NCBI RefSeq assembly: GCF_029581275.1
Contig: NZ_CP120742.1
Coordinates: forward strand, 3,084,001 to 3,148,000
DNA from: Micromonospora sp. WMMD1155
Lineage (GTDB): Bacteria; Actinomycetota; Actinomycetes; Mycobacteriales; Micromonosporaceae
Direction: 5' to 3'
Length of the DNA: 64,000 bases
This document shows, piece after piece, positions 8,135 through 23,382 of the stretch; position 1 is the stretch's first letter, and every line of letters begins with the position of its first letter. A program made the position numbers and the translations under genes. The notes below the pieces were generated by a model. The model saw only the letters and a list, made by a program, of their open reading frames with translations. It had not been told where the DNA came from and searched no databases.

Positions 8135-8835
8135 GCAACGACCCGACGGCCAGCTCCCCCCACCGGGAGCTGGCCGTCTCCGCGACCGAACCCGACGGCG
8201 ACGACGAGCTGGACTACGTCGCCGCTCGACTGATCAGCGGCAAGCTGACCGGCCGCCCCGTCGAGGACGCCGTCGACCTGGGCCGGATCGAGAAGGCCGT
8301 CCGCGAGATCCTGATCGCGGTCGGCGAGGACCCGGACCGCGACGGCCTCCAACAGACCCCGGCCCGGGTCGCCCGCGCGTACGCCGAACTCTTCGCCGGG
8401 CTGCGCGTCGACCCGGCGCAGGTGCTCAGCACCACCTTCGAGGCCAACCACGAAGAGCTGGTGATCGTCCGGGACATCGACGTGATGAGCCTCTGCGAGC
8501 ACCACCTGCTGCCGTTCCGGGGCAGCGCGCACATCGGCTACATCCCCGGCCCGGACGGGCGGATCACCGGCCTGTCCAAGCTCGCCCGACTGGTCGAGGT
8601 CTTCGCCCGTCGACCCCAGGTGCAGGAGCGGCTCACCTCGCAGGTCGCCGACCTGCTGATGAGCAGACTCGCACCACGCGGGGTCGTCGTCGTGCTCGAA
8701 TGCGAGCACATGTGCATGGCGATGCGCGGCATCCAGAAATCCGGTGCCAAGACCATCACCTCAGCGGTACGCGGCATCCTGCAGACGGACTCGAAGTCGC
8801 GGGCCGAGGCGATGGCGCTGATCATCCCCCGCTGA
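8131..8835 (+). CDS. folE: GTP cyclohydrolase I, probable CTG start
   Basis: First enzyme of folate synthesis, GTP to dihydroneopterin triphosphate. Zinc ligands and motif are visible: C122-E-H-H ([18 protein letters not shown]) and C195 in HMCMAMRG. The conserved N-terminal helix region ([22 protein letters not shown]) must be translated, yet its frame holds no ATG, GTG or TTG between an upstream stop at 8071 and the GTG at 8422, which lies beyond those helices. The best start is CTG 8131, which overlaps the ftsH stop as CTGA, the place where related genes would have ATGA or GTGA. That gives 234 aa. In M. tuberculosis folP follows at once; here a 12.6-kb block intervenes. Confidence 0.9.
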
Positions 8836-8927: not shown

Positions 8928-9671
8928 TCAGCCGGCGAGCACGGCCAGCAGCAGACCCGCCGTGACCAGCACCGCCGGCACCAGGCACACCAGCGCGCCG
9001 AAGCGGACCGTGCGGTCCAGCCGCTCCGCCGGGCCGACGCGGAACAGCCGCCCGATGCCCAGCCAACCGGCGACGAACGCGACCGCCGGCATCGGCAGCC
9101 CACAGATCAGCGCGGCCACGGTGGCCGGCCCGATGCCCGTCGCCGCGTACACCGCGACCTGGATCAGCGGCACCAGCAGCGCCAACGGCCCGTACACCAG
9201 GAGGTTGCGCGCCCGGACCGACCACGACCCCGGCCGGAACCGACGGCGCGTGCCCAGCGCCGTGTCCGCCGCCTCGGCCCGGCCCCGCGCGGCGCGCAAC
9301 GCCGCCAACACCGCGGCCGGGCCGCCCGCCATCGACCGGGCCGCCTCGGTCAGCTCCGGCGGCGACGGCACCAGCGAGATCGCCGGTACGCCCAACTCCC
9401 GCAGCCGCTCCTGCTGACTCGCCAGCCCGGTTCGCACCACGGTCAACTCCTCCCGGGCGGCCTCCGCCGACCGGGCCTGCTCACCGGCTGCGGCAGCCGC
9501 GCTGCGGCGTACCCCGTCGAGCTGACGCGCCGCGGCCAGGTACTCCGCCCAGACCGTGCTCGGCTCGACCGCCGTCGGCGTGACGTCTCCGCTCGCCGAC
9601 GCGGCGCGCTGCCGTCCCGGCCCGGTCACCGTCGCGTTCGGACCCACCTCGACACCTCCCGCTCGCGCCAT
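8928..9671 (-). CDS. membrane protein with N-terminal coiled coil
   Basis: A 247-aa protein of unknown function. Residues ~35-110 are Ala/Arg/Glu-rich and helical, probably a coiled coil (EYLAAARQLDGVRRSAAAAA and following). The C-terminal third has two or three hydrophobic segments (NLLVYGPLALLVPLIQVAVY, AALICGLPMPAVAFVAGWLG, FGALVCLVPAVLVTAGLLLA). ATG 9671 follows the stop of the FtsK-like gene by 4 nt, so the pair is surely one operon and this protein is a likely membrane partner. The open frame extends to 9887, but only by overlapping the upstream gene. Confidence 0.75.
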   Translation of the reverse strand: MARAGGVEVGPNATVTGPGRQRAASASGDVTPTAVEPSTVWAEYLAAARQLDGVRRSAAAAAGEQARSAEAAREELTVVRTGLASQQERLRELGVPAISLVPSPPELTEAARSMAGGPAAVLAALRAARGRAEAADTALGTRRRFRPGSWSVRARNLLVYGPLALLVPLIQVAVYAATGIGPATVAALICGLPMPAVAFVAGWLGIGRLFRVGPAERLDRTVRFGALVCLVPAVLVTAGLLLAVLAG

Positions 9672-9675
9672 CGCG

Positions 9676-12237
9676 TCAGCCGGTCTCGTCCGCGAACGGC
9701 ACCAGGACCCGACCCCGCTCGTCGGGGCCGTCCCACAGCACCGCCCGGTCGGGGCGGACCCGCCACTCCACCGGCCGCCCGAAGACGGCGGTGAGCTGCG
9801 GGACCGGCACGTCCAGCACGACCACGGCGGCCAGCTTGTCGACCTCACCCGCCGGCTCGAACAACGCGGCGAACGGCGGCACCGCACGCCACCAGCCCAG
9901 CAGGTGCCTCCCCGCCGGCGGGCCGTCCCGCAGCAACGCCCGGAGCCGGTCCACCGGCAACTCCCGGGGACCCGGCCGGTCCAGACCGAAGACCACCAGG
10001 TACGTCGGCAACTCGTCGGCCGGGTCCGCCAGCAGCGTCGACAGGTCCACCATCTCGGCCGAATGCCGGGTGGCCAACTCGGCGGTCAACGCCTCCGCCA
10101 GCGCCCGCGAACTCGGATCCGGTGCCGCCACCAGGAAACGAGCGCTCCCCGGAGGGTGATGGTCGGCGGTGCTCCGGGCCGCCGTCGCCAGCAGCCCACC
10201 CGCCGCGGCACCCGACCCCAACACCGCCAGGTTGCGCCCGGCCGCCGGCCCCAACGGCACGGCGACAGTCGAACGGGCCACATCCACCGCGCGGCCCAGC
10301 AGGGCGGCCGGGCCGTGCGCCTGCCCCGCCAACGCCGCCCGGTGGCGCGGGTCGTTGCTCAGCAGGGGCCGGGCGTAACCGGCGAAGACCACCGGAGGCG
10401 CCGACCCGGCCGGGCGGGCCGCCCACAACTCGTGCCGAAGCTCCTCCACCACCTCCGGGTGGTCCTGCGGGTCCGGATAGCGGATCAACCGTTCGTGACC
10501 CCGGATCGCACCCCGAGGCCCGCCGAGCCCACCGGCGGTGTTGACCACCGCGCTGCCCACCGGCAGACCGGCCGCCGAGTCGTTCGTCGGCTCCAGCACC
10601 GGGCTGCCGCCCGGCAACGCCACCCGCACCGGAAACTGCCCGAGCACCGAATCCCGGTGGCCGGCATCCGCGCGGGCACTCAGCCCCAGCTCGCCCGCCC
10701 CGGCCAACACCAGGTGCACGCCGAACGCCCGACCGGCCCGGGCCAACCCGTCCAACTGGGCCGCCACCTCGGCGGCCAGTCGATCCCGTTCGGCGAAGAG
10801 CAGCGGCACATTCTCCAACACGCACACGATCCGCGGCAGCGACTGATGCTGACGCAGCTCCGCGAACCGTTGCCCACCAGCCCGCGTCGCCGCCTCCGCC
10901 CGCCGCCGCACCTCGGCCGTCAACTCGTCGAGCAGATCCCGCACGTACTCCCGGTCGGCGGCCATCGCCGCAGCGCGCACCTGCGGAATCCACGACCGGT
11001 CCCGCTCGGTCTGCAGGAACTCCACGAAGGACTCACCCTCGCCCAGATCCGCCAGGTAGAGCGACAGCTCGTCCGGGCCGTACCAAGCGGCCAGGCCCAG
11101 CAGCGCGGTGGTCAGGAAGGCGGCACGACCCCCCGCGGAACGACCACTCACCAACCAGTGCGGCGTCAGCTCGGTGAAACCCAGGGGCACCGACCGACCC
11201 CCGGCATCACCGACCGTGGTCGTCATCCCGTCCACGGACTCCGACTCCCACAGGTGCTCGCCCGTCGCTGGCAGCAGAGCCGCCAACGCCAACCGCGAAC
11301 CCGCCTCCACCTGCTCGGCCAGCCGTCGACAGACCGCGCCCACCAACTCGGCCGGCGGATCCGACTCCACGAAGACCGGTGAGTTCAACCCGCCCGGCGG
11401 ATCCGCGCCCGGCCCGGCGAAGGACGCCCCCGGCGGATCACCGAGCAGCGCGTACGCGTTGCGCAACGCCACAGCCGTGGTGCGCGGCAACGGTGCCCGG
11501 ACCGCGTACGGACCGGCCGGCGGCCAGCCGGCCACCACCAGGTGCAACCCCGCCGCCGGCCCCTGCTCGGCCAGCGCCTCAAGCCGCGCCAGATCACTCG
11601 GACCAGTCGACTCCGGCATCGCCGCGACCACCAACAGCAACGTACGGTCGTGGCGACGCCGGCCACTCGCACCCGGCGTCACCCACTGCTCCGCCTCGGT
11701 CAACACCGCGCGCAGGCCGGTCACGTCCACCGCAGGCGGCGGCAACAGACCGGCATCGGCGAGCGGACCGAACGACGTCAGCACGACACCGGTGGCGTCC
11801 ACCGCGCGAACCAACAAGGCACCCGCCGGTGTCGCACCCAACAACCGCAGGAGTACGGCCCGAAGCAACCCCGCCACCCGCGGCTCCCGCGCATCCGCGT
11901 CCACGCTCAGATGACCGGTGCCCACCAACGGCACCAACGCGGGGAAACGGGCATCATCCAGCGGCGCCGCCGTGCCGACCCGTACGAACGGCGGCGGACC
12001 GTCACCCGCCGCGGTGTCCACCGTCAGCGAATTCAATGCCGCACCCGACCAGCCCGGAGCCAGCCGTGCGGCAACCTCCCGCAGACGATCGGCCACCTCG
12101 TACTGGCGGCGCTGATCGGCCGGGGCCGGTCGCGTCTCGTCCAGGATCCCCGCGGCAGCGGTAGCGACTGCCGCCGCCCGACGGTGCAGAGCTGCGGCGC
12201 GGTTCGTACGTGCCTTCGGACCGGCCACCGCGTCCAC
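9676..12237 (-). CDS. FtsK/SpoIIIE-like protein with degenerate ATP sites
   Basis: A large soluble protein (853 aa). The central part resembles FtsK/SpoIIIE or EccC ATPase domains: HWLVSGRSAGGRAAFLTTAL at the Walker A position, then YLADLGEGESF, and LPRIVCVLENVPLLFAERDRLA with the spacing of a FtsK domain. The Walker A is broken: around R371 it reads G-RSAG-G-R-A, with Arg for the invariant Lys and Ala for Ser/Thr. A second domain near residue ~675 (VLGSGAAAGGLLATAA) also lacks the Lys. It therefore may bind but probably does not hydrolyse ATP, unless another site serves. GTG 12237 is the longest start; GTG 12228 has a better placed GAGGGG. Co-operonic with the downstream membrane protein. 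Confidence 0.75.
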   Translation of the reverse strand: MDAVAGPKARTNRAAALHRRAAAVATAAAGILDETRPAPADQRRQYEVADRLREVAARLAPGWSGAALNSLTVDTAAGDGPPPFVRVGTAAPLDDARFPALVPLVGTGHLSVDADAREPRVAGLLRAVLLRLLGATPAGALLVRAVDATGVVLTSFGPLADAGLLPPPAVDVTGLRAVLTEAEQWVTPGASGRRRHDRTLLLVVAAMPESTGPSDLARLEALAEQGPAAGLHLVVAGWPPAGPYAVRAPLPRTTAVALRNAYALLGDPPGASFAGPGADPPGGLNSPVFVESDPPAELVGAVCRRLAEQVEAGSRLALAALLPATGEHLWESESVDGMTTTVGDAGGRSVPLGFTELTPHWLVSGRSAGGRAAFLTTALLGLAAWYGPDELSLYLADLGEGESFVEFLQTERDRSWIPQVRAAAMAADREYVRDLLDELTAEVRRRAEAATRAGGQRFAELRQHQSLPRIVCVLENVPLLFAERDRLAAEVAAQLDGLARAGRAFGVHLVLAGAGELGLSARADAGHRDSVLGQFPVRVALPGGSPVLEPTNDSAAGLPVGSAVVNTAGGLGGPRGAIRGHERLIRYPDPQDHPEVVEELRHELWAARPAGSAPPVVFAGYARPLLSNDPRHRAALAGQAHGPAALLGRAVDVARSTVAVPLGPAAGRNLAVLGSGAAAGGLLATAARSTADHHPPGSARFLVAAPDPSSRALAEALTAELATRHSAEMVDLSTLLADPADELPTYLVVFGLDRPGPRELPVDRLRALLRDGPPAGRHLLGWWRAVPPFAALFEPAGEVDKLAAVVVLDVPVPQLTAVFGRPVEWRVRPDRAVLWDGPDERGRVLVPFADETG

Positions 12238-12431
12238 CCCCTCTGCCCGAGGTTGGCAACCCCTCCCGAGCAGAGACGGTATCCCAGCCGGCTCCCCTCC
12301 TCCGGGAGGTGCCTCGGCGGTGCGCCAGGGATGTCGTGGATCTCACCGGTGGGGAGGGGTCCGTCACGATCCGCTGGATCCGAGGCATTGGCTCCGGGGC
12401 GTCCAGCCGATAACTTCAGGAGGTGGAATCA

Positions 12432-12986
12432 GTGCAGCCCCCCGCCGGTTCCCAGGTCTCCCGCGTACCGGCCCAACGGGCACCGTCCGAGCAGCTGCCG
12501 CCGGCTGCGGCACCACCGGCGCCGCAGCCGCCGCGCCGCCGAATGCGGACCGTGCTCACGGTCGTCGGCGGTGTTCTCGCGTTGCTCTGTCTGGGCGGGG
12601 CCATCACGGGCTACGTGCTGTACAACCGCGCGGCAGCCCCCGACCGCAGCACGCCCGATGTGGCAGTAGTCAACTACCTCCAGGCGACGCTCGTCTCCCG
12701 CGATTTGAATCGGGCAAAGCTGTTTTCCTGCAATGGTGGGGTTCCCGCGGTCAATGAATTCGCTGCTCAAGTAGCCGGGCGTGAACAGGAATTGGGCGTG
12801 GCCTTCTCGATTAATATCGAGAATGTTGTGGTTTCCAAGACCGCCGTATCTGACGCGGTTGTAACCGCCGTAATCCGCCGAAGCGCATCGATCGATGGTG
12901 TTCACCAAAGCCTGGCGGACGCATGGCGGTTCGATGTGAAGGACAAGGAGGGGTGGCGCGTTTGCGCAGGCAATAGAGTGAGCTGA
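12432..12986 (+). CDS. single-pass membrane protein, NTF2-like C-terminus possible
   Basis: 184-aa protein: Pro/Ala-rich cytoplasmic N-terminus, one TM (RTVLTVVGGVLALLCLGGAITGYVLY) near residue 40-62, then an external domain of about 115 aa. That layout resembles small actinobacterial proteins with an NTF2-like or DUF4878-type domain, but I cannot assign it firmly. GTG 12432 is chosen because AGGAGGT lies 6 nt before it; a GTG at 12423 is inside that ribosome site. It is the only plus-strand gene in the 8.9-21.5 kb block. From about 12700 to 12970 it is visibly less GC-rich and uses codons such as GAA, AAT, ATT and GTT that its neighbours avoid. Confidence 0.7.
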   Translation: MQPPAGSQVSRVPAQRAPSEQLPPAAAPPAPQPPRRRMRTVLTVVGGVLALLCLGGAITGYVLYNRAAAPDRSTPDVAVVNYLQATLVSRDLNRAKLFSCNGGVPAVNEFAAQVAGREQELGVAFSINIENVVVSKTAVSDAVVTAVIRRSASIDGVHQSLADAWRFDVKDKEGWRVCAGNRVS

Positions 12987-12988
12987 CG

Positions 12989-13588
12989 TTACTCGATCCA
13001 CAACAGATGGACCGGTACCTCCAGGGTGGTGGGTGCCTGGCCGCGCCAGGCCCAGCGGTACCACTCCACCTCCGGCGTGATCCGCACGCAGATGTCCCCC
13101 TCGGCACCCGAGTAGGTCTCGGTGACCGCCCGCAGGTCGCGATGCTCAACGCCGTCCTCGACGTGCACGACCCTTCGACCGGTGACCGCGTCCGCCTCGA
13201 AGACGGGTGTGGGGTTGCGGTGCGCGGGTCCGTCCAGGGAGACCAACCGGATGCCGGTCTCCCGATCTTCCTCCGCGACCGGGCGGCTGCCGACCGTCTC
13301 CACCCAGACCCGCTCCACCGGCACCAGCGGGGCGAACACCTCCACCTGCTCGGCCTCGGCCCGGTACCACTCGTGCTCGGGGATCACCGGCACGTAGGTC
13401 CGGGCGTTCTGCACCACCCGGTCGTCCGCGCGCAGGTCGCCCCGCCAACCCAGCCCCGGCAGCCCGACCAGCACCCGTCGCCCGCGTAGTTCCACCCGGT
13501 CGGTGGCGGGCACGACGGCCAGTGGCCGGGGCGGCCGGGGTGCCCAGTCCGGCTGGTCGGCGAACGGGTCCGGCAATGGTCCGGTCAT
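12989..13588 (-). CDS. hypothetical protein, 199 aa
   Basis: No family recognised. The protein is soluble-looking, rich in Trp, Glu and Val, without a signal or TM segment. It has a Pro-rich start (MTGPLPDPFADQPDWAPRPP) and two similar stretches, PEHEWYRAEAEQVEVFAPLVPV and PEVEWYRWAWRG, which hint at an internal duplication. ATG 13588 is preferred to the longer frame up to 13627 because the extension overlaps the hydrolase gene upstream. It is last in the minus-strand run from the pilin-like gene and converges on 12432-12986 with a 2-bp gap. Position suggests a role with the secretion-like genes; nothing in the sequence proves it. Confidence 0.65.
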   Translation of the reverse strand: MTGPLPDPFADQPDWAPRPPRPLAVVPATDRVELRGRRVLVGLPGLGWRGDLRADDRVVQNARTYVPVIPEHEWYRAEAEQVEVFAPLVPVERVWVETVGSRPVAEEDRETGIRLVSLDGPAHRNPTPVFEADAVTGRRVVHVEDGVEHRDLRAVTETYSGAEGDICVRITPEVEWYRWAWRGQAPTTLEVPVHLLWIE

Positions 13589-13601
13589 GCCAGTGGTGAC
13601 C

Positions 13602-14774
13602 TTACTCGGCGGCGCGCAGCGGGGCACCCCGCTCGCGCATGAACGGAACCGGGTCGATGGCTCCGGAGCTCTTCCGGTTGTTGCGCTCGTGCACCTCGAA
13701 GTGCAGATGCGGGCCGGAGGAATTGCCGCTGCTGCCGACCTGCCCGATCACGTCGCCCGCCGAAACGATCTGATGCACCTTGACGCGTGGCTGGACCACC
13801 ATGTGGCAGTAGCGGGTGATGTAACCACCGGCGTGCAGCAGGTCGACGAACCAACCGCAGCCGCCCTTGTCCGGGTACCCGTCCACGTCACAGTCCCGCC
13901 GATTCCGGTTGTCCGGATCGCACTGGGCGACCAGCACCCGACCGGATGCCGCAGCGCGGATCTCGGTGCCCTTCGCCGCGCCGATGTCCACCCCGTGGTG
14001 GCTGGGTCGGCTGGCGGTGCGGAAGCCGGAGCCGACGTCGCCGGGGATCGGAGCGGTCCAGCCGGAGGCGGCGATCTCGCCGCGCTCGGCCGCGTCACAC
14101 ACCGCCTTGCCGTTGATCTCGACGGTGCGGGCCGCGCCTCCGGCCAGCGCGTTCACAAGCTTGCTGGCCAACTCCTCGTGCTTGGCGTAGGCGTCCGGAT
14201 AGGCGCTGACCTGGACCTGCTGTGCCACCACAGTCAGCGGTCGGCGCTGCCAACTGCGGACCTTGACGAGCTTCTCGTAGAACTTCCGAGCTGCGTACGA
14301 GGGCGTCATCCGTTCGGCGACCGACCCCCAACCGGGCCGCTGCTGGAACAGCCCCAGCGAGTCGTGGTCAGCCCCGACGCCCTCGTTCGGCAGGCTGAGG
14401 GATTCGGGCTCGGCTCTGTTGGCCAGGTTGCGCAGATTTGACTCCTGCATGGCGGTCGCCAGGGCGATGACCCAACCCCGCGACGGCACACCCAGGTCCT
14501 GGCCGACCTTGATGATGATCGCAGCGTTGCGGACCTGCGCGTCGCCGTACTCGGTGAACCGCGGCAGCTCGCCCACGATGTCCACCGGACGGACCGGTCC
14601 GCAACCCCAGCCGGCCAGGTTGTCCCCGTCCTCCGCGTCGCCGCCGAGCCCACTCAGGAAGAACGCCGCGGTCCCGCCGGTGCAGCAGAGCAGAAGCAGC
14701 ACACCGGTGAGCATCGTGGCGATCACGCCGACCCGCACCGGTCGGCGGAGGGCGGCACCCCTGTCGGCGCTCAC
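13602..14774 (-). CDS. two-domain peptidoglycan hydrolase: lysozyme-like plus M23 endopeptidase (VirB1-like role)
   Basis: A 390-aa exported enzyme. GTG 14774 overlaps the stop of the upstream gene as GTGA. After a TM/signal segment (VGVIATMLTGVLLLLCCTGG) comes a lysozyme/transglycosylase-like domain with AMQESNLRNL (probable catalytic Glu) and HDSLGLFQQRPGWG. The C-terminal ~140 aa are a peptidase M23 domain with both zinc motifs, HHGVD and HLHFEVH. Cell-wall hydrolases of this two-domain type open the wall for type IV secretion machines in Gram-positive bacteria. Its place at the end of the VirB-like run supports that role. It could also serve general wall turnover. Confidence 0.87.
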   Translation of the reverse strand: MSADRGAALRRPVRVGVIATMLTGVLLLLCCTGGTAAFFLSGLGGDAEDGDNLAGWGCGPVRPVDIVGELPRFTEYGDAQVRNAAIIIKVGQDLGVPSRGWVIALATAMQESNLRNLANRAEPESLSLPNEGVGADHDSLGLFQQRPGWGSVAERMTPSYAARKFYEKLVKVRSWQRRPLTVVAQQVQVSAYPDAYAKHEELASKLVNALAGGAARTVEINGKAVCDAAERGEIAASGWTAPIPGDVGSGFRTASRPSHHGVDIGAAKGTEIRAAASGRVLVAQCDPDNRNRRDCDVDGYPDKGGCGWFVDLLHAGGYITRYCHMVVQPRVKVHQIVSAGDVIGQVGSSGNSSGPHLHFEVHERNNRKSSGAIDPVPFMRERGAPLRAAE

Positions 14775-15328
14775 GGCCGCTCCCAATCCACCACGTCGAC
14801 CATCCACCCCTCGTCGGAGGTGACGAGTTCCAGCCTCAGCCGGCCGTTGTCCAGCGGAAGTAGCAACTCGACGAACGTCTCGGTGCGCTCCCGCATGGTC
14901 GGCGGCCCGGTGACCTGCTCGGCGGGCACAGTCTCGGGTTCGGCACCGGCCAGCTTCTCGGTCAGGGCAGGCGTGGAAAGCGGCCGGAGGCCGGTCTGCC
15001 ATTCCTCCGTGGTCATCCCGGGGCGGCCCAGCCACGCCTTGGTGAATCGGTCCGCGGTCTGTTCGGGCGTCCGGGCACCCGGCGATGTCACCGGTGACGG
15101 CGGAGCCTCGTCGGAGAGCACCCCGTCGTCGCCGGTCGTCGGGTCCACTGTGGTGATCGGTTGGTTCGGGCGGCTGCTCAAGCCGTCGGTCGGATCGAGG
15201 GGACCAGACATCAAGCGAGCCGCGCCGAGCACACCGAAGACGAGTACCGCGATGACGAGCGCCACGCCCAGCCGGGACCGCAGCGCCCGGGTGAAGAGAA
15301 ACTCAAGCGCCCGTCGCATCCCCGTCAC
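14771..15328 (-). CDS. membrane-anchored protein, VirB8/TcpC-like by position and layout
   Basis: 185 aa: a short cytoplasmic start, one TM (LGVALVIAVLVFGVLGAARL) and an external domain. The region TPEQTADRFTKAWLGRPGMTTEEWQTGL to the end (ELVTSDEGWMVDVVDWERP) has the look of an NTF2-like fold, as in VirB8 or TcpC. GTG 15328 overlaps the upstream stop as GTGA and has AGAGG seven nt before it; ATG 15319 is the alternative. It is translationally coupled on both sides. The VirB8 assignment rests on layout and neighbours, not on a clear motif. Confidence 0.6.
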   Translation of the reverse strand: MTGMRRALEFLFTRALRSRLGVALVIAVLVFGVLGAARLMSGPLDPTDGLSSRPNQPITTVDPTTGDDGVLSDEAPPSPVTSPGARTPEQTADRFTKAWLGRPGMTTEEWQTGLRPLSTPALTEKLAGAEPETVPAEQVTGPPTMRERTETFVELLLPLDNGRLRLELVTSDEGWMVDVVDWERP

Positions 15329-17334
15329 CGTGCCTCTGAGCGCACCCGAGGTCCGGAACGGTCCGGCGTGCGCTCCGTCGACCCGGGCCGGTAGACGACG
15401 AACGACGGGTTCTCGGCCGGCACGTCCGGCTCGGTCCACGTCGCCGGCTGACGGCGACGTGGCTGGGGGGCGACGGGACGGCCCCGGCCTCTGGTCTCGG
15501 CCGCCGGCGTCTCATCGGGGCGTTCCCGGCCGTCGGGGCGCCCGCTGTCGCGCTGGCCCGCGCCGACAGCCGACGGCGTCGAGACCGGATCCTCCCGGCG
15601 GGCCTCCGGGCGCAGTCGGGTCTGTTCCACGTCGGGTGACCGTCGACGCCCGCCCACCGGCTCGGCTGTGCCGCCCGGCTCCGCCACGTCCAGTCGGGCG
15701 GCGGTCCGCATGTCCCGGAAGAACCGGCGGTGCCAGGAGCCGGCCGAACTCACCGCCTCGCTGCTGTCCTTGCCGCCGAGTTGGGTGATCCGTCGGTACG
15801 GCCGCAGCAATAGCCAGCCGACCACCCCGCAGAGCCAGACCAGCACCACCTGGAGCCAACCTGCCAGGGTTGGCGTGCTCATGATCAGGTCGACGGCGAA
15901 CAGGTAGATCGCGGCCCCGGTGCCGAAGATGGCGATGTTGAACACCGCCGCAACTACGGCGTTCGCCAACCGCCGTAGGCCGGCGCTGGCCGGCCGGAGC
16001 AGGCCGATGGTGCCCAGGATGGGTGCCGCGATCACCGCCCACCGGAAGATGAGGAAGCCCAGCAGGACGAGCACCGACGCGGTCAGGTCGAACATCGCGA
16101 AGAGCAACGCGGCCAGCACCGCGATGAACCCAGCACCGACGCGGTCCATGTCGCGCACGCCCTGGAGGTATTCGTACGCCTCCGGGTCCTCGGTCTGGAT
16201 CTGCTGGGCCACCCGTGCCCACTGCTGCTGCTTGGCCTTGATCGTCGCCTCCCGGGTAGCCGGGTTGGCGCGCATGGATTGGGCCTCGCCCCATGTCAGA
16301 GACCGTGCGTCGTACAAGGCCGGGCCGTACTTACGGGCGGTTTCGCTGTCCGCCGAGCCCAGTACTCCGCGGAGCCAGTTCCGGTAGAGCATGGTCTCGG
16401 TAGCGGTGTCGCTGGCTCGGACGGCGGGCGTGCGGAGGTCCTTACAGCGGTTCGGGTCGGGGTCGATGCACCGCCCTGGGTCCGGCTCCTTCGCCTGCGG
16501 ACCGACCGCGTCGTGGACGACTCCGAGACTTGTGACAAGTGCACCGTCGGCGACATTGGCCGACTTGACCGGCCAGGCAGCGAGGGCGGTGACCGCGACC
16601 ATCACCAGCAGTGCCCACCCCGCGGTGGTCATCGCGTTGCTCATGTCTGACTGGCGGGATCGCCAGAGCAGATAGAGCCCCACCACGCAGAGGGTGATGA
16701 TGCCGAAGACGCTGAACACCTTCTCGTACACGGCCTTGGTGGCCTGCTCGACCAGCGGGTCCGCCCAGCCCCACATCGAGCCGGGGTCCCAGGCACGCTC
16801 ACGAAGTGCGTTGGACGCACCGATGATTGCCGTAGCGGCCATGAATTCGCCATTGGCGATCGTGGTGGTGAACTTGTAGTCCGGATGCAGCACGCTGGAC
16901 GCGCAGCCACCCTCGATGTCATAGGTGTTGTAGCTGTAGCCACCGTAGCCGTAGAGGCTGTACCGGCCAGCCACTCCGTTCGCTGCTTCCGTTGGCGGCG
17001 CTGCGGCGAACCAGCCGGCGAGGCCCGAGTCCGGTGTGCCCGGCGTCGGAGCGTTACGGCACTTGACCTCGTCCTCGCTGACCGTCTGGAGCTTCTGCAC
17101 GCAGGCCCGGAAGTCGGCCTGCCATTCGGCTGTCGTGCAGAGGTCGGCGCGGGCCTGGGCGACGGGTGGGGCCGCCGCTGCGGCCTCCGCCCCGATCAGC
17201 GGCCAGGTGAGGGTCGCTCCGGCCAGGACGCCGAGGGCGAGCAGGAACGACGTGATCCTTGCCCGGGCCCCGGGGCTTGGGGCCCGGCCCTTCGCCTCGG
17301 CTCGACCGAGGACCTTGACCCAGGCCCTAGCCAT
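15325..17334 (-). CDS. polytopic membrane protein, VirB6/TrbL-like
   Basis: 669 aa. Signal-like helix at ~25-55 ending in AEAAAAAPP, then a Cys-containing extracellular loop of about 130 aa. Several TM helices follow: VFSVFGIITLCVVGLYLLW, TAGWALLVMVAVTALAAWP, a long hydrophobic pair around FIAVLAALLFAMFDLTASVL, ANAVVAAVFNIAIFGTGAAIYLFAVDLI, and LQVVLVWLCGVVGWLLL. The tail of about 130 aa is charged and disordered. This is the build of VirB6/TrbL channel subunits. ATG 17334 starts 1 nt after the VirB4-like stop, so the genes are coupled. The family is inferred from topology and context. Confidence 0.65.
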   Translation of the reverse strand: MARAWVKVLGRAEAKGRAPSPGARARITSFLLALGVLAGATLTWPLIGAEAAAAAPPVAQARADLCTTAEWQADFRACVQKLQTVSEDEVKCRNAPTPGTPDSGLAGWFAAAPPTEAANGVAGRYSLYGYGGYSYNTYDIEGGCASSVLHPDYKFTTTIANGEFMAATAIIGASNALRERAWDPGSMWGWADPLVEQATKAVYEKVFSVFGIITLCVVGLYLLWRSRQSDMSNAMTTAGWALLVMVAVTALAAWPVKSANVADGALVTSLGVVHDAVGPQAKEPDPGRCIDPDPNRCKDLRTPAVRASDTATETMLYRNWLRGVLGSADSETARKYGPALYDARSLTWGEAQSMRANPATREATIKAKQQQWARVAQQIQTEDPEAYEYLQGVRDMDRVGAGFIAVLAALLFAMFDLTASVLVLLGFLIFRWAVIAAPILGTIGLLRPASAGLRRLANAVVAAVFNIAIFGTGAAIYLFAVDLIMSTPTLAGWLQVVLVWLCGVVGWLLLRPYRRITQLGGKDSSEAVSSAGSWHRRFFRDMRTAARLDVAEPGGTAEPVGGRRRSPDVEQTRLRPEARREDPVSTPSAVGAGQRDSGRPDGRERPDETPAAETRGRGRPVAPQPRRRQPATWTEPDVPAENPSFVVYRPGSTERTPDRSGPRVRSEAR

Positions 17335-17335
17335 G

Positions 17336-20300
17336 TCACGCCTCCAGATCCGGAAGGGGGATGCTCGGCAGGACTCCGGCCGCAGCGGCGATCGCGGCGG
17401 GCGTCGTATCGAGGTGATCCAGCAGCCCTTCGACGTACGAGACGTCGACGCGGACCTTCTGCACCCTGCCGTCGACGTCGCGCATCACGAACTCGCGGAA
17501 GCCGAGGCGGGAGGCCGAGTTGGTGTCGGCGGCGGAGAGGGAGGCGAGAGTGGCCTCGTACCCGTCGTTGACCGGCACCCGCAGCAGCCGCAGCGCTTCG
17601 GAGGCGATCTCGGTGTCCTCGGCGATGCGGCCGACGAAGACGGTGGAGACGAGGTTCTGCACGTCGAGGCCGAGGATGTCGCGGGGGTTCTGCGAGGCGA
17701 CGAGCGCGGCGAGGTTCCACTTGCGGGAGTCGCGGGCGAGTCGGACCAGGAACGAACGCCCGGACCGCCAGCCCTCCATGAAGTGCGCCTCGTCCAGGCC
17801 GACCAGTTTGCGCGACGACATCGAGCCGCCGTAGCAGCGCCGGACGGCGAGCCGGTGCGCGGTGTGCAGCATCGGCAGGGCCAGCGCCTCCTCGGCCGAC
17901 CAGTACTCGCGTTCGATCTTGAGGTCGGGCAGCCGCAGCCCGGCCATGGTGATCACCGTGAGTGCGGCGTCGGCGCCGAGCAGCCCCTCCGGGGGACGGC
18001 CGAAGAAGAGCATGGCCAGGGGCATCTCGGCGGTGTCGAGGAGGAGATTGGCCAGTTCCTTGCCGGCGTCGTCGTCGAGGCGCCCGAGGCAGCTCACGAC
18101 GTCGTCCAGGGTGGACGTCTCCTCGGCGGGAACCTGACGGACGGCGTGCCGGAACAGGGTGGCGGTGGACGCCTCCCTGGCCACCTGCGGCGGGACCAGC
18201 ATCATGCAGATGTCCTGGACCAGCATCCGCCGCTCGGCCCGCGCGTTGGAGACCGCGATCTCGAACTCGCGGTCACCGGCGGCCCCGGTGCCGAATTCGG
18301 TGCGCAGGGGCGTCGGGATGAGCGAGTAGGGCGCCAGGGTGCCGTGCTCCGAGCCGGTCAGGTTCAACACCCGGGAGTACGGCCGCAGCTCGGGCATCGC
18401 GCAGAGGCGGGCCAGCGGCCCGGACGGGTCGAGCAGGGTCACCTGGACACCCCGGCGGGCGGCCAGGTAGCCCAGTGCCCCGAGCAGGGTCGACTTGCCA
18501 CCACCCGGTTCGGCGACGAAGACCGCGAGCCCGGAGCGTTCCCGGACCTCCATGGGGAAGTGCAGGTCGAGGAAGACCGGGCGGCGGCAGGTGCCGGCGG
18601 TCCGGCCGATCAGGTCGCCCCGACGGTCGCCCACGTTCGACGCGGCCTGGGGGAGCGCGGCTGCGAGCAACGGCACCGGCATGCGCCGGACGTAGCCGGT
18701 GTTGGCGATCGGCTCCCCGGGGATGAACTCGCGGGCCAACCAGTCCTGGTTCTTCGGGTGTTGCAGCGAGATGCGCAGCTCCCGGGAGTAGAGCTGGATG
18801 AGCCGGCGGGCCCGCTCCAGGCATTCCTCCCTGGTCCGGCCGCCGACCGCGATCCGGTGCCAGCCGTGCGCACGGGCCGAGTCGACCGGCAGGCCGGTGG
18901 TCATCTCGTCGCCGATCACCAGCGCCCGCTTGGCGAGTCGTTCCAGCTCCGGGGGTGCGTCGATGCCGTGCTCGGCGTAGTCGAGCTGTTGGGAGCGGAT
19001 CATCCGTAGCCGGTGTTCGAGGTTACGGAAGGAGTCGCCGGAGCCGAGGATGTCGACGCGGGTGGAGATCTCCATCGGCCAGGGCAGCCGCTCGTGGAAG
19101 TGCAGCCAGGGCTCGTGCCGTTCCGGGATCTCCAGCGGCTCCATCCGGCCGACCGCGAGCACTGCCACGTGCCGCTCCTCGCCGGTCATCCGGTTGACCA
19201 GCTTGACCGTCGAGCCGTACGGGGTGCGGTAGCGCTCCACCTGCTCGGTCAGGGCGAGCAGGTCACCGCGTTCCCAGCGGCCGTCGGTCACCGGCGAGAG
19301 CGTGCCGGGGGGTGCCATGCACAGCGCCACCGACCGGTAGAGGAGCCACTCCAACTCCTGTGCGGTGACCCGTCGACCCCGCATGCCGAACGCGCCGAGC
19401 ACCTCGTCGAACTGTTCGACGGTGCGGCCCAGCTTGCGGCGTTCGCCCTCGGCGGTGCCCCGACCGAAGGTGCGCAGCATCCGTTCGGTGAGGGAGTCGC
19501 CGAGGGAGCGGCGGGCGAAGGTGACACCCAGGTAGGTCTGGCCCTCGGCGTGGTTGACCGCCATCAGGTGTCGTTGGGCGGCGACCAGGTGATCTGCCCA
19601 GCCGGTGGTGCCGGGAACGTCGGCGAGCGGCGCGGCGGTGTGGGCGTCGATGGTGCGCGCCCACTCGTCGGCGGGGAACGGCCGGGTGGTGCGGCGCAGG
19701 TGCAGCCGGAAGCCGGCCAGGCCCGCGTACTGCTCGGAGATCGCCGACAGGAGTGCTTCGCGTTCGGCGTCCGGCCGGAATGCCCAACGGACCTCGGGCA
19801 GCCAATACCAGGCGGTGACCGTGTTGGGGGTGAAGGTGAGGTGACCGGCGATCTCGGTGATGGCCAGCTCGACCGACGGGTCCCGATCACCGAACTTGAT
19901 CTTCGGTGCGCGGATCCGGGTCGGCTTCGTCGGTCGGTCCTGGCGACCGGCGGCGCGCCCTCGGGGCGGGGCGACCTCCTTGCCGACACCCTTGGCTCGA
20001 TCCGAGCCGGCGGCGCGGCGTTGGGGCCGTTCCAGGGCCGGCCGGTCGGTCGGAGCGGCGTTGGCCGGACGCTCGACAGGAGCGGTCGACCGCTCCACGG
20101 GCTGAGTGTGGGCCGGGGCTCGTTCCACGGGTGCCGTGGGTCGACCGGACGCCGCGGTCGGCCGGGCGGGTGACGTGGTGTCGGGTGGGCGGGTCGCCGG
20201 GCCCTGGGCCCTCGAGACGGACGTGCCCTCGGTGACCGGCTCGGGCTCTGCGGTCGGCCGGAGGATCGGCAACCGGTCGCCGGCCTGATGCGGCACCCGC

Positions 20301-20770
20301 GACTCGTTGCCCGGGTGGCCGCCGACGTGTCGTGGCTCGACGCGTCGGCCCCCATTGCCGGGCTGGTCCTCGGGGGTCCACGGTGGCTCCAGGTCGGGAA
20401 CGGGTGGAGCTGGTGTCGGACCGGCCGTGGGCGGCTGCTGCTGCGGGATCGCCGGTTGCTCCCGGGTGGTCGGGCCTGCCGAAACGGCTCGTGGGCCGGG
20501 CCGGGCTCCGCCGAAGAGGTCGAGGAAGGGCGAGTCGATGTCGGCGTTGTCCCCGGCCGAGACCGCGCTCGGCTCGGCGGGTGCCGGCCGACGAGAGACC
20601 GGGCGGGGTGCCTGGAACACGCCGACCGCGCCGTGGCCGGGCGAAGTCACCAGTGCGGGGTCGAGCGCCACCTCGTCCTCGTCTTCGGTGTAGTCGAATG
20701 AGTGCGCACGGTGACCTGCCGGCACGGCCGGGCGGCCGGCCGGAGAACCCGGCGTGGACGAGCGACTCAT
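17336..20770 (-). CDS. VirB4/TraC-like secretion ATPase
   Basis: A 1144-aa protein. The first ~290 residues are Pro/Arg/Thr-rich and disordered. The rest resembles VirB4-type ATPases as found in actinobacterial and Gram-positive conjugation systems: Walker A AEPGGGKST at ~753-761 (K759) and Walker B LDEAH at ~992-996, both intact, in the phrase KLVGLDEAHFMEG. The final part (LVASQNPRDILGLDVQNLVSTVFVGRI) fits motor-domain sequences that sense the nucleotide state. The ATG overlaps the stop of a 25-codon ORF as ATGA. It is the energy source expected for the neighbouring membrane proteins and the best-supported member of the set. Confidence 0.82.
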   Translation of the reverse strand: MSRSSTPGSPAGRPAVPAGHRAHSFDYTEDEDEVALDPALVTSPGHGAVGVFQAPRPVSRRPAPAEPSAVSAGDNADIDSPFLDLFGGARPGPRAVSAGPTTREQPAIPQQQPPTAGPTPAPPVPDLEPPWTPEDQPGNGGRRVEPRHVGGHPGNESRVPHQAGDRLPILRPTAEPEPVTEGTSVSRAQGPATRPPDTTSPARPTAASGRPTAPVERAPAHTQPVERSTAPVERPANAAPTDRPALERPQRRAAGSDRAKGVGKEVAPPRGRAAGRQDRPTKPTRIRAPKIKFGDRDPSVELAITEIAGHLTFTPNTVTAWYWLPEVRWAFRPDAEREALLSAISEQYAGLAGFRLHLRRTTRPFPADEWARTIDAHTAAPLADVPGTTGWADHLVAAQRHLMAVNHAEGQTYLGVTFARRSLGDSLTERMLRTFGRGTAEGERRKLGRTVEQFDEVLGAFGMRGRRVTAQELEWLLYRSVALCMAPPGTLSPVTDGRWERGDLLALTEQVERYRTPYGSTVKLVNRMTGEERHVAVLAVGRMEPLEIPERHEPWLHFHERLPWPMEISTRVDILGSGDSFRNLEHRLRMIRSQQLDYAEHGIDAPPELERLAKRALVIGDEMTTGLPVDSARAHGWHRIAVGGRTREECLERARRLIQLYSRELRISLQHPKNQDWLAREFIPGEPIANTGYVRRMPVPLLAAALPQAASNVGDRRGDLIGRTAGTCRRPVFLDLHFPMEVRERSGLAVFVAEPGGGKSTLLGALGYLAARRGVQVTLLDPSGPLARLCAMPELRPYSRVLNLTGSEHGTLAPYSLIPTPLRTEFGTGAAGDREFEIAVSNARAERRMLVQDICMMLVPPQVAREASTATLFRHAVRQVPAEETSTLDDVVSCLGRLDDDAGKELANLLLDTAEMPLAMLFFGRPPEGLLGADAALTVITMAGLRLPDLKIEREYWSAEEALALPMLHTAHRLAVRRCYGGSMSSRKLVGLDEAHFMEGWRSGRSFLVRLARDSRKWNLAALVASQNPRDILGLDVQNLVSTVFVGRIAEDTEIASEALRLLRVPVNDGYEATLASLSAADTNSASRLGFREFVMRDVDGRVQKVRVDVSYVEGLLDHLDTTPAAIAAAAGVLPSIPLPDLEA

Positions 20771-20844
20771 GCGACCGCCTTAGCGACTGTCGACAGACTG
20801 TTACCCGCGTCCTGCGACGCACCGATCGGCGTACGCCCGGTCAT
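20767..20844 (-). CDS. 25-aa micro-ORF bridging two secretion genes
   Basis: ATG 20844 overlaps the TGA of the VirB3-like gene (ATGA), and its own TGA overlaps the ATG of the VirB4-like gene (ATGA). It begins MTGRTPIGASQDAG and ends in KAVA. GGGAGGAG lies 5 nt before its ATG, a far stronger ribosome site than the one before the VirB4-like start, so ribosomes are likely to translate it. Its function may be only to carry ribosomes to the next gene; the peptide itself is unlike anything I know. Confidence 0.6.
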   Translation of the reverse strand: MTGRTPIGASQDAGNSLSTVAKAVA

Positions 20845-21203
20845 GCCAGCTCCTCCCGGATCCTGATCCGACTGCCGACCAGACGCGGATCGCGCTGTTC
20901 GACCGCCGGCTCCCGGGTGCGTCGCCAGTCGGTCAACGCGGTGCGGATGACCACCCGCGCCGGCCGATCGGGGTCGACGTGCCGGAAGATGAACGACGTG
21001 GTCACGATGGCGAGCGCGATCTCCCAGGCCGGGAAGAGCTCGACCGTCAACGTGAACAGCCAGTGGATGAACATGTAGAGGGGGACCAGCAGCATGAAGA
21101 GCCCGTACTGGGCGTAGGGCAGGTGGACCGGAAGGGTGTAGCCGGGCGGCCCGAGGTAGACCAGGCGGGCCCGGTAGATGTCGTCGTCGGTGCGCAGCCG
21201 CAT
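20841..21203 (-). CDS. small membrane protein, VirB3/PrgI-like
   Basis: 120 aa with two adjacent TM helices (YGLFMLLVPLYMFIHWLFTLTV and WEIALAIVTTSFIFRHV) in the first two thirds and a basic cytoplasmic tail. PrgI/VirB3 proteins have this size and topology and sit directly before VirB4, as here. ATG 21203 follows the upstream stop by 12 nt. The end overlaps the micro-ORF start. The assignment is by size, topology and position. Confidence 0.65.
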   Translation of the reverse strand: MRLRTDDDIYRARLVYLGPPGYTLPVHLPYAQYGLFMLLVPLYMFIHWLFTLTVELFPAWEIALAIVTTSFIFRHVDPDRPARVVIRTALTDWRRTREPAVEQRDPRLVGSRIRIREELA

Positions 21204-21215
21204 GTGGGAACGCGC

Positions 21216-21530
21216 CTATTCGAAGATCAGGTCGATCAGGTAATCGCCGACGAAGAAGAGCGTTGCCGCGCCGGCGATGAAGGCGAGGCCGACGATGGCG
21301 ATCGCGGAGCTGGTCAGCACCTTGGAGATCTCGCCCCGGCTGGCACGACCGATGAAGATGACGCCGAGGACGGCGAGCAGGATCGGCGCGATCTTGCTGG
21401 CGAAGAAGGTGACGACACCGTTGGTGTCGATCCCCTTCGGTGCCGGCTCGGCGAGCGGAGCCGACGCCAGGGTGGAGAGCGCGTGGGCGACGCCGGACGA
21501 CGCCGTCTCCATGAGCTCGAAGGCGATCAC
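21216..21530 (-). CDS. small pilin-like (VirB2/TrbC-like) membrane protein
   Basis: 104 aa. A GTG start at 21530 has GGGAGG six nt before it. The first part (VIAFELMETASSGVAHALST) is followed by two strong TM helices, FASKIAPILLAVLGVIFIGRA and LTSSAIAIVGLAFIAGAATLFFVGDYLI, separated by a short polar loop with a conserved-looking RASRGEIS. VirB2/TrbC pilins have two such helices joined by a short loop. First gene of the minus-strand run, divergent from folP. It could instead be a non-pilus membrane subunit. Confidence 0.65.
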   Translation of the reverse strand: MIAFELMETASSGVAHALSTLASAPLAEPAPKGIDTNGVVTFFASKIAPILLAVLGVIFIGRASRGEISKVLTSSAIAIVGLAFIAGAATLFFVGDYLIDLIFE

Positions 21531-21886
21531 TGGAACCTCCCCATAGCGCGGCCGGCGGTGCCGCGGCGGTGCAATTGGCGAACCTGGCGGGAAAAGTGCT
21601 CCACAGGGCGCAGCGTTCTTGACCCTGTGTTCGTTACTCACCACAGAGCGTGGCGAGGTTTGGGCGGTTTTCCCCCGCTTCGGCCCTCCCTCCAAGCTTC
21701 GCCATCTCGATGCTGGCCGATTCCAAAGCGTACGGCCCGCCCCGGATTGCGACAAGCTGCGAAGGGACTGCCCGACGCTGCCCGAATGACCTATCGTACA
21801 CCTGTTCTAATTTGCACGTCAGGGGTGGTGGTGCGAGGCTGACCCGGGGCGGTGGGCGCCGCCGTGGCGACCGGTACCGTCTAGTC
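21531..21886. other. 356-bp divergent promoter region, pilin-like gene / folP
   Basis: No gene is supported; an open frame upstream of folP (from 21650) is an in-frame extension without protein-like content. The region is locally lower in GC. It holds a 7-bp inverted repeat CACAGGG (21602-21608) / CCCTGTG (21623-21629) that could be an operator, and the folP -10-like element at its right end. Confidence 0.5.
21875..21880 (+). promoter_or_regulatory. -10-like TACCGT for folP
   Basis: TACCGT ends 6 nt before GTG 21887. This supports that GTG over the upstream in-frame ATG at 21650 and implies a leaderless folP transcript. Confidence 0.45.
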
Positions 21887-23017
21887 GTGACTGATCTGGT
21901 GCGGGCTCCGGGCCCGGTGGTGATGGGCGTCCTCAACGTCACGCCGGACTCCTTCTCCGACGGCGGACGGTACGCCGACCTCGACGCCGCCGTCGGACAC
22001 GGCGTCCGTCTGCGCGACGCCGGCGCGCACCTGGTGGACATCGGCGGCGAGTCGACTCGCCCGGGCGCCGAGCGGATCGACGCCACGACCGAGGTCGAGC
22101 GGGTGTTGCCGGTCATCCGTGAGCTGACCGCCGCCGGCGTGCTGGTCAGCATCGACACCAGCCGGGCGCGGGTGGCGGAGGCCGCCCTGGCGGCCGGTGC
22201 GGCGGTCGTCAACGACGTGTCCGGCGGGCTCGCCGACCCGGACATGGCCCGTGTGGTCCGCGACGCGGACTGCCCCTGGGTGTTGATGCACTGGCGGGGT
22301 CACTCCCGTGAGATGCGTGAACTGGCCACCTACACCGACGTGGTGGCCGACGTGCGGGCCGAGTTGACCCAACGCGTCGACGCGGCGCTGGCCGCCGGGG
22401 TGGCCGCCGAACGCCTCATCGTCGACCCCGGCCTCGGCTTCGCCAAGACGGCGGCGCACAACTGGGAGCTCAGCACCCGACTGCCGGAGCTGCTGGACCT
22501 CGGTTACCCGCTGCTCTTCGGCGCCAGCCGCAAGTCGTACCTCGGCCGACTGCTCGCCGCCCCGGACGGGACACCACGGCCGACCGCCCAGCGGGAGGCG
22601 GCGACAGTGGCCACCAGCGTGCTGGCGGTCGCCGCCGGTGCCTGGGGCGTCCGCGTGCACGACGTGCGGGCCACCGCCGACGCGCTCGCCGTCTGGGCCG
22701 CGACCGGCAGCCCGTGCCTGACCAGCGCGCGCCACGCCCACGCGCACGAGGGCCGCGCGCACCAGGACCACGCGCAGGACGGCCAGGCGCAGGACGGCCA
22801 GGCGCACGAGGGCCACGCGCAGGACGGCCAGGCGCACGAGGGCCGCGCGCACCAGGACCACGCGCAGGACGGCCAGGCGCACGAGGGCCGCGCGCACCAG
22901 GACCACGCGCAGGACGGCCAGGCGCACGAGGGCCGCGCGCACGAGGGCCACGCGCACGAGGGCCGCGCGCAGGATGGCCACGCGCACCAGGACCGAGCGC
23001 AGGGAGCGCGGCGATGA
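21887..23017 (+). CDS. folP: dihydropteroate synthase with His-rich pentapeptide-repeat tail
   Basis: Joins p-aminobenzoate to the pterin pyrophosphate; the target of sulfonamides. Conserved TIM-barrel motifs are present: MGVLNVTPDSFSDGG at ~14-28, GGESTRPGA, DPGLGFAKT and FGASRKSYLG. The enzyme core ends near residue 280 (TADALAVWAATG), the normal family length. A further ~95 residues follow, of which 85 are seventeen pentads of the form A-(H/Q)-(E/Q/D)-(G/D)-(R/H/Q). The tail is in frame, without stops, and its last codons overlap the folB ATG (ATGA), so it is translated if folP is. It could be a slippage-grown passenger or a metal-binding tail. Confidence 0.93.
   Translation: MTDLVRAPGPVVMGVLNVTPDSFSDGGRYADLDAAVGHGVRLRDAGAHLVDIGGESTRPGAERIDATTEVERVLPVIRELTAAGVLVSIDTSRARVAEAALAAGAAVVNDVSGGLADPDMARVVRDADCPWVLMHWRGHSREMRELATYTDVVADVRAELTQRVDAALAAGVAAERLIVDPGLGFAKTAAHNWELSTRLPELLDLGYPLLFGASRKSYLGRLLAAPDGTPRPTAQREAATVATSVLAVAAGAWGVRVHDVRATADALAVWAATGSPCLTSARHAHAHEGRAHQDHAQDGQAQDGQAHEGHAQDGQAHEGRAHQDHAQDGQAHEGRAHQDHAQDGQAHEGRAHEGHAHEGRAQDGHAHQDRAQGARR
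22742..22996 (+). repeat. 15-bp coding minisatellite, 17 units, in folP
   Basis: Seventeen 15-bp units encode pentapeptides such as AHEGR, AHQDH and AQDGQ. A 45-bp higher-order unit (AHEGR-AHQDH-AQDGQ) recurs three times. Unit length is a multiple of three, so changes in copy number keep the frame. Confidence 0.95.
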
Positions 23018-23382
23018 GGACGGACCGGATCGAGCTGACCGGCCTGCGGGCCCGCGGCCGGCACGGGGTGTACGACTTCGAGCGGGCGCAGGGGCAGGAC
23101 TTCGTCGTCGACGCCGTCCTGGAGATGGACCTGGCGCCGGCCGCCGCCAGCGACGACGTCACCGACACCGTCCACTACGGCGAGTTGGCCGAACGTCTGG
23201 TCGCGGTGGTGACCGGTGAGCCGGTCAACCTGATCGAGACTCTCGCGGACCGGCTCCTCGCCGTCTGCCTGGCCGACGAGCGGGTCGCCGCCGCCACGGT
23301 CACCGTGCACAAGCCGGAGGCCCCGGTGCCGCACACCTTCACCGACGTGGCCGTCACCATGACCCGGACGCGGGCCCGATGA
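23014..23382 (+). CDS. folB: dihydroneopterin aldolase
   Basis: 122-aa aldolase/epimerase that makes 6-hydroxymethyl-dihydropterin in folate synthesis. Family motifs are visible: RIELTGLRARGRHGVYDFERAQGQ at the start, the DTVHYGELAE segment, and VTVHKPEAPVPHTF near the end. ATG 23014 overlaps the folP stop and its own stop overlaps the folK start, both as ATGA, so folP-folB-folK are translationally coupled. Confidence 0.93.
   Translation: MRTDRIELTGLRARGRHGVYDFERAQGQDFVVDAVLEMDLAPAAASDDVTDTVHYGELAERLVAVVTGEPVNLIETLADRLLAVCLADERVAAATVTVHKPEAPVPHTFTDVAVTMTRTRAR

Follow-up and report, generated by a model that had tools for sequence, protein, structure and literature searches.

We analysed a window of 64,000 nt from Micromonospora sp. 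WMMD1155 (NZ_CP120742.1), whose positions serve as coordinates throughout, and focused on a 12.6-kb block that lies between ftsH-folE and folP-folK and carries genes similar to those of type IV secretion systems (T4SSs). The block, whose genes are labelled g1 to g11, comprises two minus-strand units (Table 1). Unit A, from 21533 to 12989, holds g1, g2, a micro-ORF, g4, g5, g6, g7 and g8 in this order, neighbouring genes either overlapping by 4 nt or lying no more than 13 nt apart; the plus-strand gene g9 separates it from unit B, which is formed by g10 and g11. An earlier note on this DNA had placed these genes between folE and folP, and every gene it named was found at its place and on its strand. 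It had also described the block as lying within the folate operon, which agrees with the direct adjacency of folE and folP in three genomes of other families. Among 14 stretches taken around folP (13 genomes), ftsH-folE-folP ran uninterrupted in these three (L241, L242 and L244), with 6–129 bp between the folE and folP matches, and folE did not adjoin folP in the eight Micromonosporaceae stretches taken around folP (L233–L240).

The VirB4 region of the window is identical to entries of M. chokoriensis and M. taraxaci. The ATPase encoded by g4 has intact Walker motifs, AEPGGGKST at residues 753–761 (Walker A) and LVGLDEAH at 989–996 (Walker B), and also matches NCBIfam TcpF at E 4e-19, far below the curated cut-off. 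The Walker lysine is kept in 120 of 121 VirB4 sequences, the remaining one having a gap, and the Asp-Glu pair of Walker B in all 121. g5 reached hhalign P 100 against the plasmid VirB6 set and P 99 against the VirB6 of a second actinobacterial family described below. The latter matches TrbL (PF04610) at E 7e-9, which links g5 to TrbL; no direct Pfam match of g5 was obtained among 19 aligned members. g6 shows a VirB8 fold, and a Pfam scan of 41 aligned relatives returned only two weak TpcC matches. The muramidase domain of g7 resembles 8b2h (E 4e-24) and 8b2e (E 1e-21), and a two-domain hydrolase of this kind is present in every complete core. Of the parts by which a monoderm T4SS is recognized, the block holds a VirB4 with intact Walker motifs, a polytopic VirB6/TrbL protein, a VirB8-type single-pass NTF2-like protein and a VirB1-like wall hydrolase.

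The two small membrane proteins were compared in the same manner. g1, the first gene of the core operon, encodes transmembrane (TM) segments at residues 38–66 and 68–100 by hydropathy. Its hidden Markov model (HMM) matched plasmid loci L085–L087 (E 3e-3 to 5e-7) and locus L125 (E 3e-5), and it reached hhalign P 94 against the plasmid VirB2-position set. No Pfam pilin match was found for g1, including 24 aligned members scanned. g2 is the most conserved marker of the locus. We considered it as a TcpE protein by comparison with the second family's TcpE-containing protein, which at an hhalign P of only 5.6 gave this no support. The window's own g1, g2, g5 and g6 proteins gave no relevant Pfam match. 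The roles proposed in the earlier note thus stand for g4 and g7 by domain matches and for g5 and g6 by profile or fold, and the profile and structure searches it had suggested revealed similarity for the VirB4, VirB6 and VirB8 products; for g1 and g2 they gave no Pfam identity and left the TcpE link unsupported, so that VirB2 and VirB3 are assigned by position and plasmid homology.

Table 1. Features of the block and its flanks in the 64,000-nt window
Feature	Coordinates	Strand	Product or role	Details
g1	21216..21533	-	105-aa two-TM small protein, VirB2 (pilin) position	GTG start, GGGAGG upstream
g2	20841..21203	-	120-aa membrane protein, VirB3/PrgI position	hhalign P 98.6 to plasmid set
micro-ORF	20767..20844	-	25 aa	overlaps g2 stop and g4 start by 4 nt each
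g4	17336..20770	-	VirB4-like ATPase, 1144 aa	PF12846, E 9e-24
g5	15325..17334	-	VirB6/TrbL-like polytopic membrane protein, 669 aa	
g6	14771..15328	-	VirB8-like, one TM helix and C-terminal NTF2-like domain	hhalign P 99.4 to plasmid set
g7	13602..14774	-	membrane-anchored muramidase and M23 endopeptidase, VirB1-like role	PF01551, E 3e-24
g8	12989..13588	-	hypothetical soluble protein	last gene of operon
g9	12423..12986	+	single-pass protein	weak Rv0361_Cterm match, E 4e-5, below curated cut-off
g10	9676..12237	-	EccC/FtsK-like tandem ATPase	separate unit; PF01580, E 1e-11
g11	8928..9671	-	C-terminal multi-TM, predicted coiled-coil N-terminus	paired with g10
folE	8101..8835	+	flank	ftsH upstream
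folP reading frame	21650..23017	+	flank	true start downstream of 21650
folK	23379-23906		flank, after folP	

We surveyed the system across the Micromonosporaceae. The 120-aa g2 protein occurs in 195 of 200 genomes and 41 of 42 genera; the misses are all three genomes of genus g102 and two of g90, one of which has part of a VirB4 next to a run of Ns. One further genome, G182, has the 120-aa protein and no VirB4 match. All six core genes (g1, g2, g4, g5, g6 and g7) are present in 66 of 80 named loci, in constant order and with g1 adjoining folP in every one of the 66, and the core lies between folP and folE in all 57 named stretches that hold both. The other 14 loci lack g1 and g2, 12 of them because the contig ends at VirB4, the exceptions being L045 and L075. 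Thirty-five further genera contributed 40 loci, of which 37 contain the six genes, again always in order, with folP next to g1 in 30 of the 37. A fol gene is absent from nine of these 40 stretches, two of which are cut short or N-filled. The survey of the folE–folP interval recommended in the earlier note therefore shows the fol position to be usual but not universal. Across 296 genomes sampled from the whole class, VirB4 proteins from outside the family were at most 44% identical to that of the Micromonosporaceae.

The genes are under purifying selection. Pairwise ratios of nonsynonymous to synonymous substitution rates (dN/dS) against four close loci were 0.03 for g1, 0 to 0.06 for g2, 0.12–0.14 for g4, 0.05–0.13 for g5, 0.13–0.17 for g6, 0.11–0.20 for g7 and 0.10–0.12 for g10, compared with 0.01–0.04 for ftsH. 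Against three distant loci, g9 gave 0.39–0.42 and g11 0.33–0.52. Distances of g4, g5 and g10 correlate with those of ftsH and folK (r 0.54–0.80; 57 loci, 999 permutations, each p 0.001), the ftsH and folK distances themselves correlating at r 0.48. In a VirB4 tree of 44 rows, the 17 Micromonosporaceae rows form one clade with support of 100/100. Nine of the ten plasmid rows and two rows of unknown replicon form a neighbouring clade; the sister relation of the two has support of 91/87, which falls short of the starred level, and several of the plasmids sit on long branches. The second family falls in another part of the tree, where it is joined by a Nocardiopsis plasmid. On whether the fol site is the ancestral place of the operon the tree gives no resolution.

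A tblastn search with g4 returned 286 plasmid records, all below 60% identity. The best 30 of them are actinobacterial, with VirB4 proteins 28–37% identical over 71–86% of the query. We compared stretches of ten records, including linear pSM17C, pRVR2, pSSFR2, pNSL1 and the Nonomuraea NBC_00507 plasmid; eight of the ten are linear. In nine, the transfer module has the same order as the core, i.e. a small protein, a protein of about 120 aa, VirB4, VirB6, VirB8 and a lytic enzyme. The plasmids usually pair this module with an FtsK/SpoIIIE-type gene and ParA, an annotated FtsK/SpoIIIE gene lying nearby in six of ten, whereas the Micromonosporaceae core is chromosomal and vertically inherited; its hydrolase is usually of the M23 type, in contrast to NlpC/P60 on plasmids. 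In the 22-kb linear pSM17C, a gene annotated 'type IV secretory system conjugative DNA transfer' lies directly upstream of the module. No annotated relaxase was found beside the module in any of the ten stretches; pLRE138 is typed as mobilizable, its MOBP relaxases lying in another part of the record. g8 has homologues on the Streptomyces plasmid locus L085 (24271-25053, E 3e-18) and following the hydrolase in a plasmid-like module (L135, 15199-15540, E 7e-6), and may for this reason be an old part of the system. A short peptide like the micro-ORF is present in the Micromonospora loci examined, and not in Salinispora L046 or Plantactinospora L054; from its overlaps, it is a possible translational coupling leader. 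A phage origin was also considered and rejected: among 50,697 phage records, two hold VirB4 relatives, each at about 22% identity, and g7 matches phage endolysin and tape-measure families through its lytic domains only.

The block is very probably a domesticated T4SS core. The earlier note had likewise called it domesticated and not mobile, and this conclusion holds through the presence in 195 of 200 genomes, the constant order, the purifying selection and a VirB4 clade confined to the family. Its own argument, that no relaxase or intact coupling ATPase is present, is weak, as the plasmid stretches also lack an annotated relaxase beside the module. A relaxase-free stretch is the normal look of this plasmid family, and a missing relaxase is therefore by itself no sign of domestication. 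Library scans of 11 block proteins of at least 60 aa (g11 in one scan only) revealed no relaxase, rolling-circle initiator or integrase domain. Membership in an integrative conjugative element (ICE) or its actinomycete counterpart (AICE) was rejected, since such domains and bracketing att-type repeats are missing, the distribution is not patchy and the flanks are ftsH/folE and folP/folK. No direct repeat pair bracketing the block and no tRNA were found, an Rfam scan gave no match, and the GC content of the block follows that of the flanks without setting it apart. A sigma-70 promoter and terminator scan of 12150-12520 found nothing. Reading the block as a defence system was discarded, there being only weak P-loop matches to mad8, HerA and SspH models.

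The earlier note had called g10 a pseudo-FtsK. Its Walker residues are indeed degenerate in the window, where the Walker A lysine is replaced by arginine and the acidic Walker B pair is altered; however, its nearest relative is EccC (4nh0; E 3e-29 by sequence, E 2e-26 by Foldseek, with a predicted model of pLDDT 74.5 and pTM 0.56), followed by TcpA and FtsK, it belongs to a separate gene pair, and the loss is group-specific. At the Walker A lysine position, 76 named loci have Arg in 66 (as in the window), Lys in eight, Val in one and a gap in one. The Lys rows belong to Plantactinospora, Asanoa and Phytohabitans, and the Arg rows to Micromonospora, Salinispora, Verrucosispora or another family member. 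In 19 loci of other genera, we counted Lys 12, Val 3, Arg 2, Thr 1 and Ala 1. Outside the named set, g10 is present in 19 of 37 complete core loci and was not found in 18; in nine of the core loci lacking it, no g10-like frame above 8 bits was found within about 20 kb. As g10 is absent from many core loci, it is a later or separable neighbour. Its alignment to plasmid FtsK proteins is limited to the surroundings of the P-loop (hhalign P 82). The sequence and predicted model of g10 do not fit a conjugation coupling protein that has simply decayed. The aligned loci place the Walker loss within the Micromonospora/Salinispora group and not in the system as a whole, and indicate that g10 is kept under selection in Micromonospora after losing catalysis. 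Micromonospora g10 is thus a clean case of an EccC-like ATPase whose catalytic lysine was lost genus-wide while selection persists. g10 shares tandem ATPase domains with FtsK and with EccC of type VII secretion. In ESX systems, EccC partners EccB/EccD and WXG100 proteins, whereas the block has only the EccC-like g10, without the Walker A lysine in Micromonospora/Salinispora. No other ESX component was found among the block proteins, and membership in such a system was rejected.

The host seems to have kept a DNA-transfer core for its own use, which probably moves something through the cell wall. From the observed parts, homology, distribution and constraint, we infer a possible assembly, substrate, timing and developmental role. 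The six core genes would form a minimal monoderm T4SS that reached an ancestor of the family from a conjugative plasmid of actinobacteria and has been passed on vertically since then. The VirB3-position protein and VirB6 would anchor VirB4 hexamers beneath a ring of VirB8; the lysozyme/M23 enzyme would open the wall locally, and the two-TM protein would build a short pilus or line the channel. ATP would then drive a substrate chosen by the host, protein being likelier than DNA, across membrane and wall. As the locus contains no relaxase, recombinase or dedicated coupling ATPase, it cannot transfer its own DNA by known routes and would therefore serve the host, most likely in hyphal growth or sporulation. 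We give this T4SS-derived, host-serving translocator about an even chance of being the correct description.

Several points weigh against it. The VirB2 and VirB3 labels derive only from position and from homology to plasmid proteins in the same position. The constraint on g6 and g7 is weaker against the three distant loci, with dN/dS of 0.24–0.33 and 0.30–0.47, respectively. The system is absent from all three g102 genomes and is therefore not essential everywhere. A developmental role has a precedent in Streptomyces, where deletion of cmdA-F, which includes a VirB4-like ATPase, impaired sporulation, branching and chromosome segregation and left the transfer of an SLP2-derived plasmid unaffected, according to passages of PMC2782261. 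Orthology of the six core proteins to cmd was expected, yet hhalign P did not exceed 11 (VirB4 versus CmdB, P 7); the cmd cluster is not orthologous, and its phenotype is therefore an analogy only.

The core could alternatively be a resident mating channel kept by the host, through which plasmid or chromosomal DNA passes from hypha to hypha while a plasmid or AICE contributes an FtsK/TraB-type translocase in trans. The FtsK/SpoIIIE genes near six of the ten plasmid modules, the DNA-transfer gene upstream of a seventh (pSM17C) and the EccC/FtsK-like gene found beside the fol-site core of many genera, its Walker lysine present in 12 of 19 loci, would suit such a channel. We nevertheless consider it unlikely, because g10 resembles plasmid FtsK around the P-loop only, is closest to EccC and is missing from 18 of 37 core loci, and because the core is retained in Micromonospora and Salinispora, where g10 is catalytically degenerate. 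It also appears improbable that translocation was lost and that the complex now positions the lysozyme/M23 enzyme or stabilizes cross-walls, VirB4 powering its assembly. A hydrolase-delivery role predicts that the hydrolase is the most constrained part, yet it is among the least constrained and the VirB4 motifs, g1 and g2 are the most, even though the two-domain hydrolase accompanies every complete core and the locus lacks a coupling ATPase or obvious effector. ComB of Helicobacter is a T4SS-derived DNA-uptake machine, and the block similarly is a relaxase-free T4SS with VirB2/3/4/6/8-type parts only; however, neither the block nor the genes right next to it showed a DNA-uptake gene, no report of natural competence in the family came up, although no search was aimed at one, and a competence function is very improbable. 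A decaying ICE or plasmid insertion is barely conceivable despite the plasmid-like parts, given 195 of 200 genomes, the kept order, purifying selection and the lack of bracketing repeats or integrase.

Beside the block, the folE frame at 8101-8421 is open and homologous yet has no ATG, GTG or TTG, and the relative L004 is similar; by its sequence, translation of folE may begin at a rare start codon, or the frame may be misread.

A family-wide T4SS operon also occurs in a second family (f17), whose close relatives bear the database names Microbispora, Nonomuraea, Streptosporangium, Actinomadura and kin. Its members in the class sample had one VirB4 each, and VirB4 is found in all 150 genomes and all 62 genera of the family surveyed. 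Pilin-like, TcpE, VirB4, VirB6, VirB8 and NlpC/P60 genes stand in this order in 10 of 16 loci (L125, L207, L209, L210, L212-L214, L216, L220 and L221), and sdhA lies near the operon in six of the 16. This family shares the one-operon set of pilin-like, TcpE-domain, AAA_10, TrbL, TcpC-like and NlpC/P60 proteins, but differs in a VirB4 that is about 33% identical and in a separate clade, in its place in the genome and in a TcpE protein fused to a long extension. Since its VirB4 is placed apart in the tree, two separate recruitments are the simplest reading. It is possible, though by no means likely, that mycelial actinobacteria several times independently turned conjugative T4SS cores into developmental machines shared by a whole family, in the Micromonosporaceae, in the Microbispora/Nonomuraea/Actinomadura family and, more remotely, as cmd in Streptomyces. 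If so, each recruited core would act as an organelle of the host, carrying protein or DNA through cross-walls or spore envelopes, rather than as a transfer system, and family-wide T4SS cores could explain part of actinobacterial development. Culturable Micromonosporaceae with a family-wide, vertical, relaxase-free T4SS core, together with a second independent case, offer a tractable place to study this.

Like the present core, Streptomyces cmdABCDEF (SCO4126-4131) lies on the chromosome throughout its lineage and encodes a membrane cluster that includes a VirB4-like ATPase; the passages of PMC2782261 concerned describe a sporulation phenotype for it. It differs in that CmdB has only about 475 aa and CmdA is a weak TraG-D_C match. 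CmdB orthologues at 91–100% were found only in f19/g22 (196 class genomes), in 18 genomes listed, a group we took to be Streptomyces; one f8 genome had a match at 78%. The CmdB-like locus L117 has Lys 90, matching CmdB as given in an excerpt of PMC2782261. The source genome, a single contig of 7.34 Mb, itself contains a distant CmdB-like frame at 4967686-4968975, 32% identical to Streptomyces CmdB and not found in the same-genus genomes G095 and G189. It also has two other VirB4-like frames, at about 2.89 Mb (L002) and 0.16 Mb (L003), each followed by a longer frame, that at L003 with a P-loop like that of a coupling protein; from their sequences, these are probably separate conjugative elements of the same genome. 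A separate VirB4-like clade consists of other chromosomal AAA_10 proteins, of 840–1080 aa (L127-L134; families f2, f10, f18 and f20).

We found no published description of the family-wide Micromonosporaceae system in the PMC literature searched. One VirB4-like gene, possibly that of the present locus, is mentioned among unknown genes of M. lupini in a passage of PMC4182475. Relaxase-free chromosomal T4SSs are an already known class, as stated in part of PMC3158045. Sections of PMC12102498 and PMC12857230 describe the T4SS of Patescibacteria as likewise chromosomal, lineage-wide, relaxase-free and monoderm, with VirB2-like proteins; it belongs, however, to another phylum and VirB4 lineage, and these sections report VirD4, pilin arrays and an essential role in epibiotic growth.

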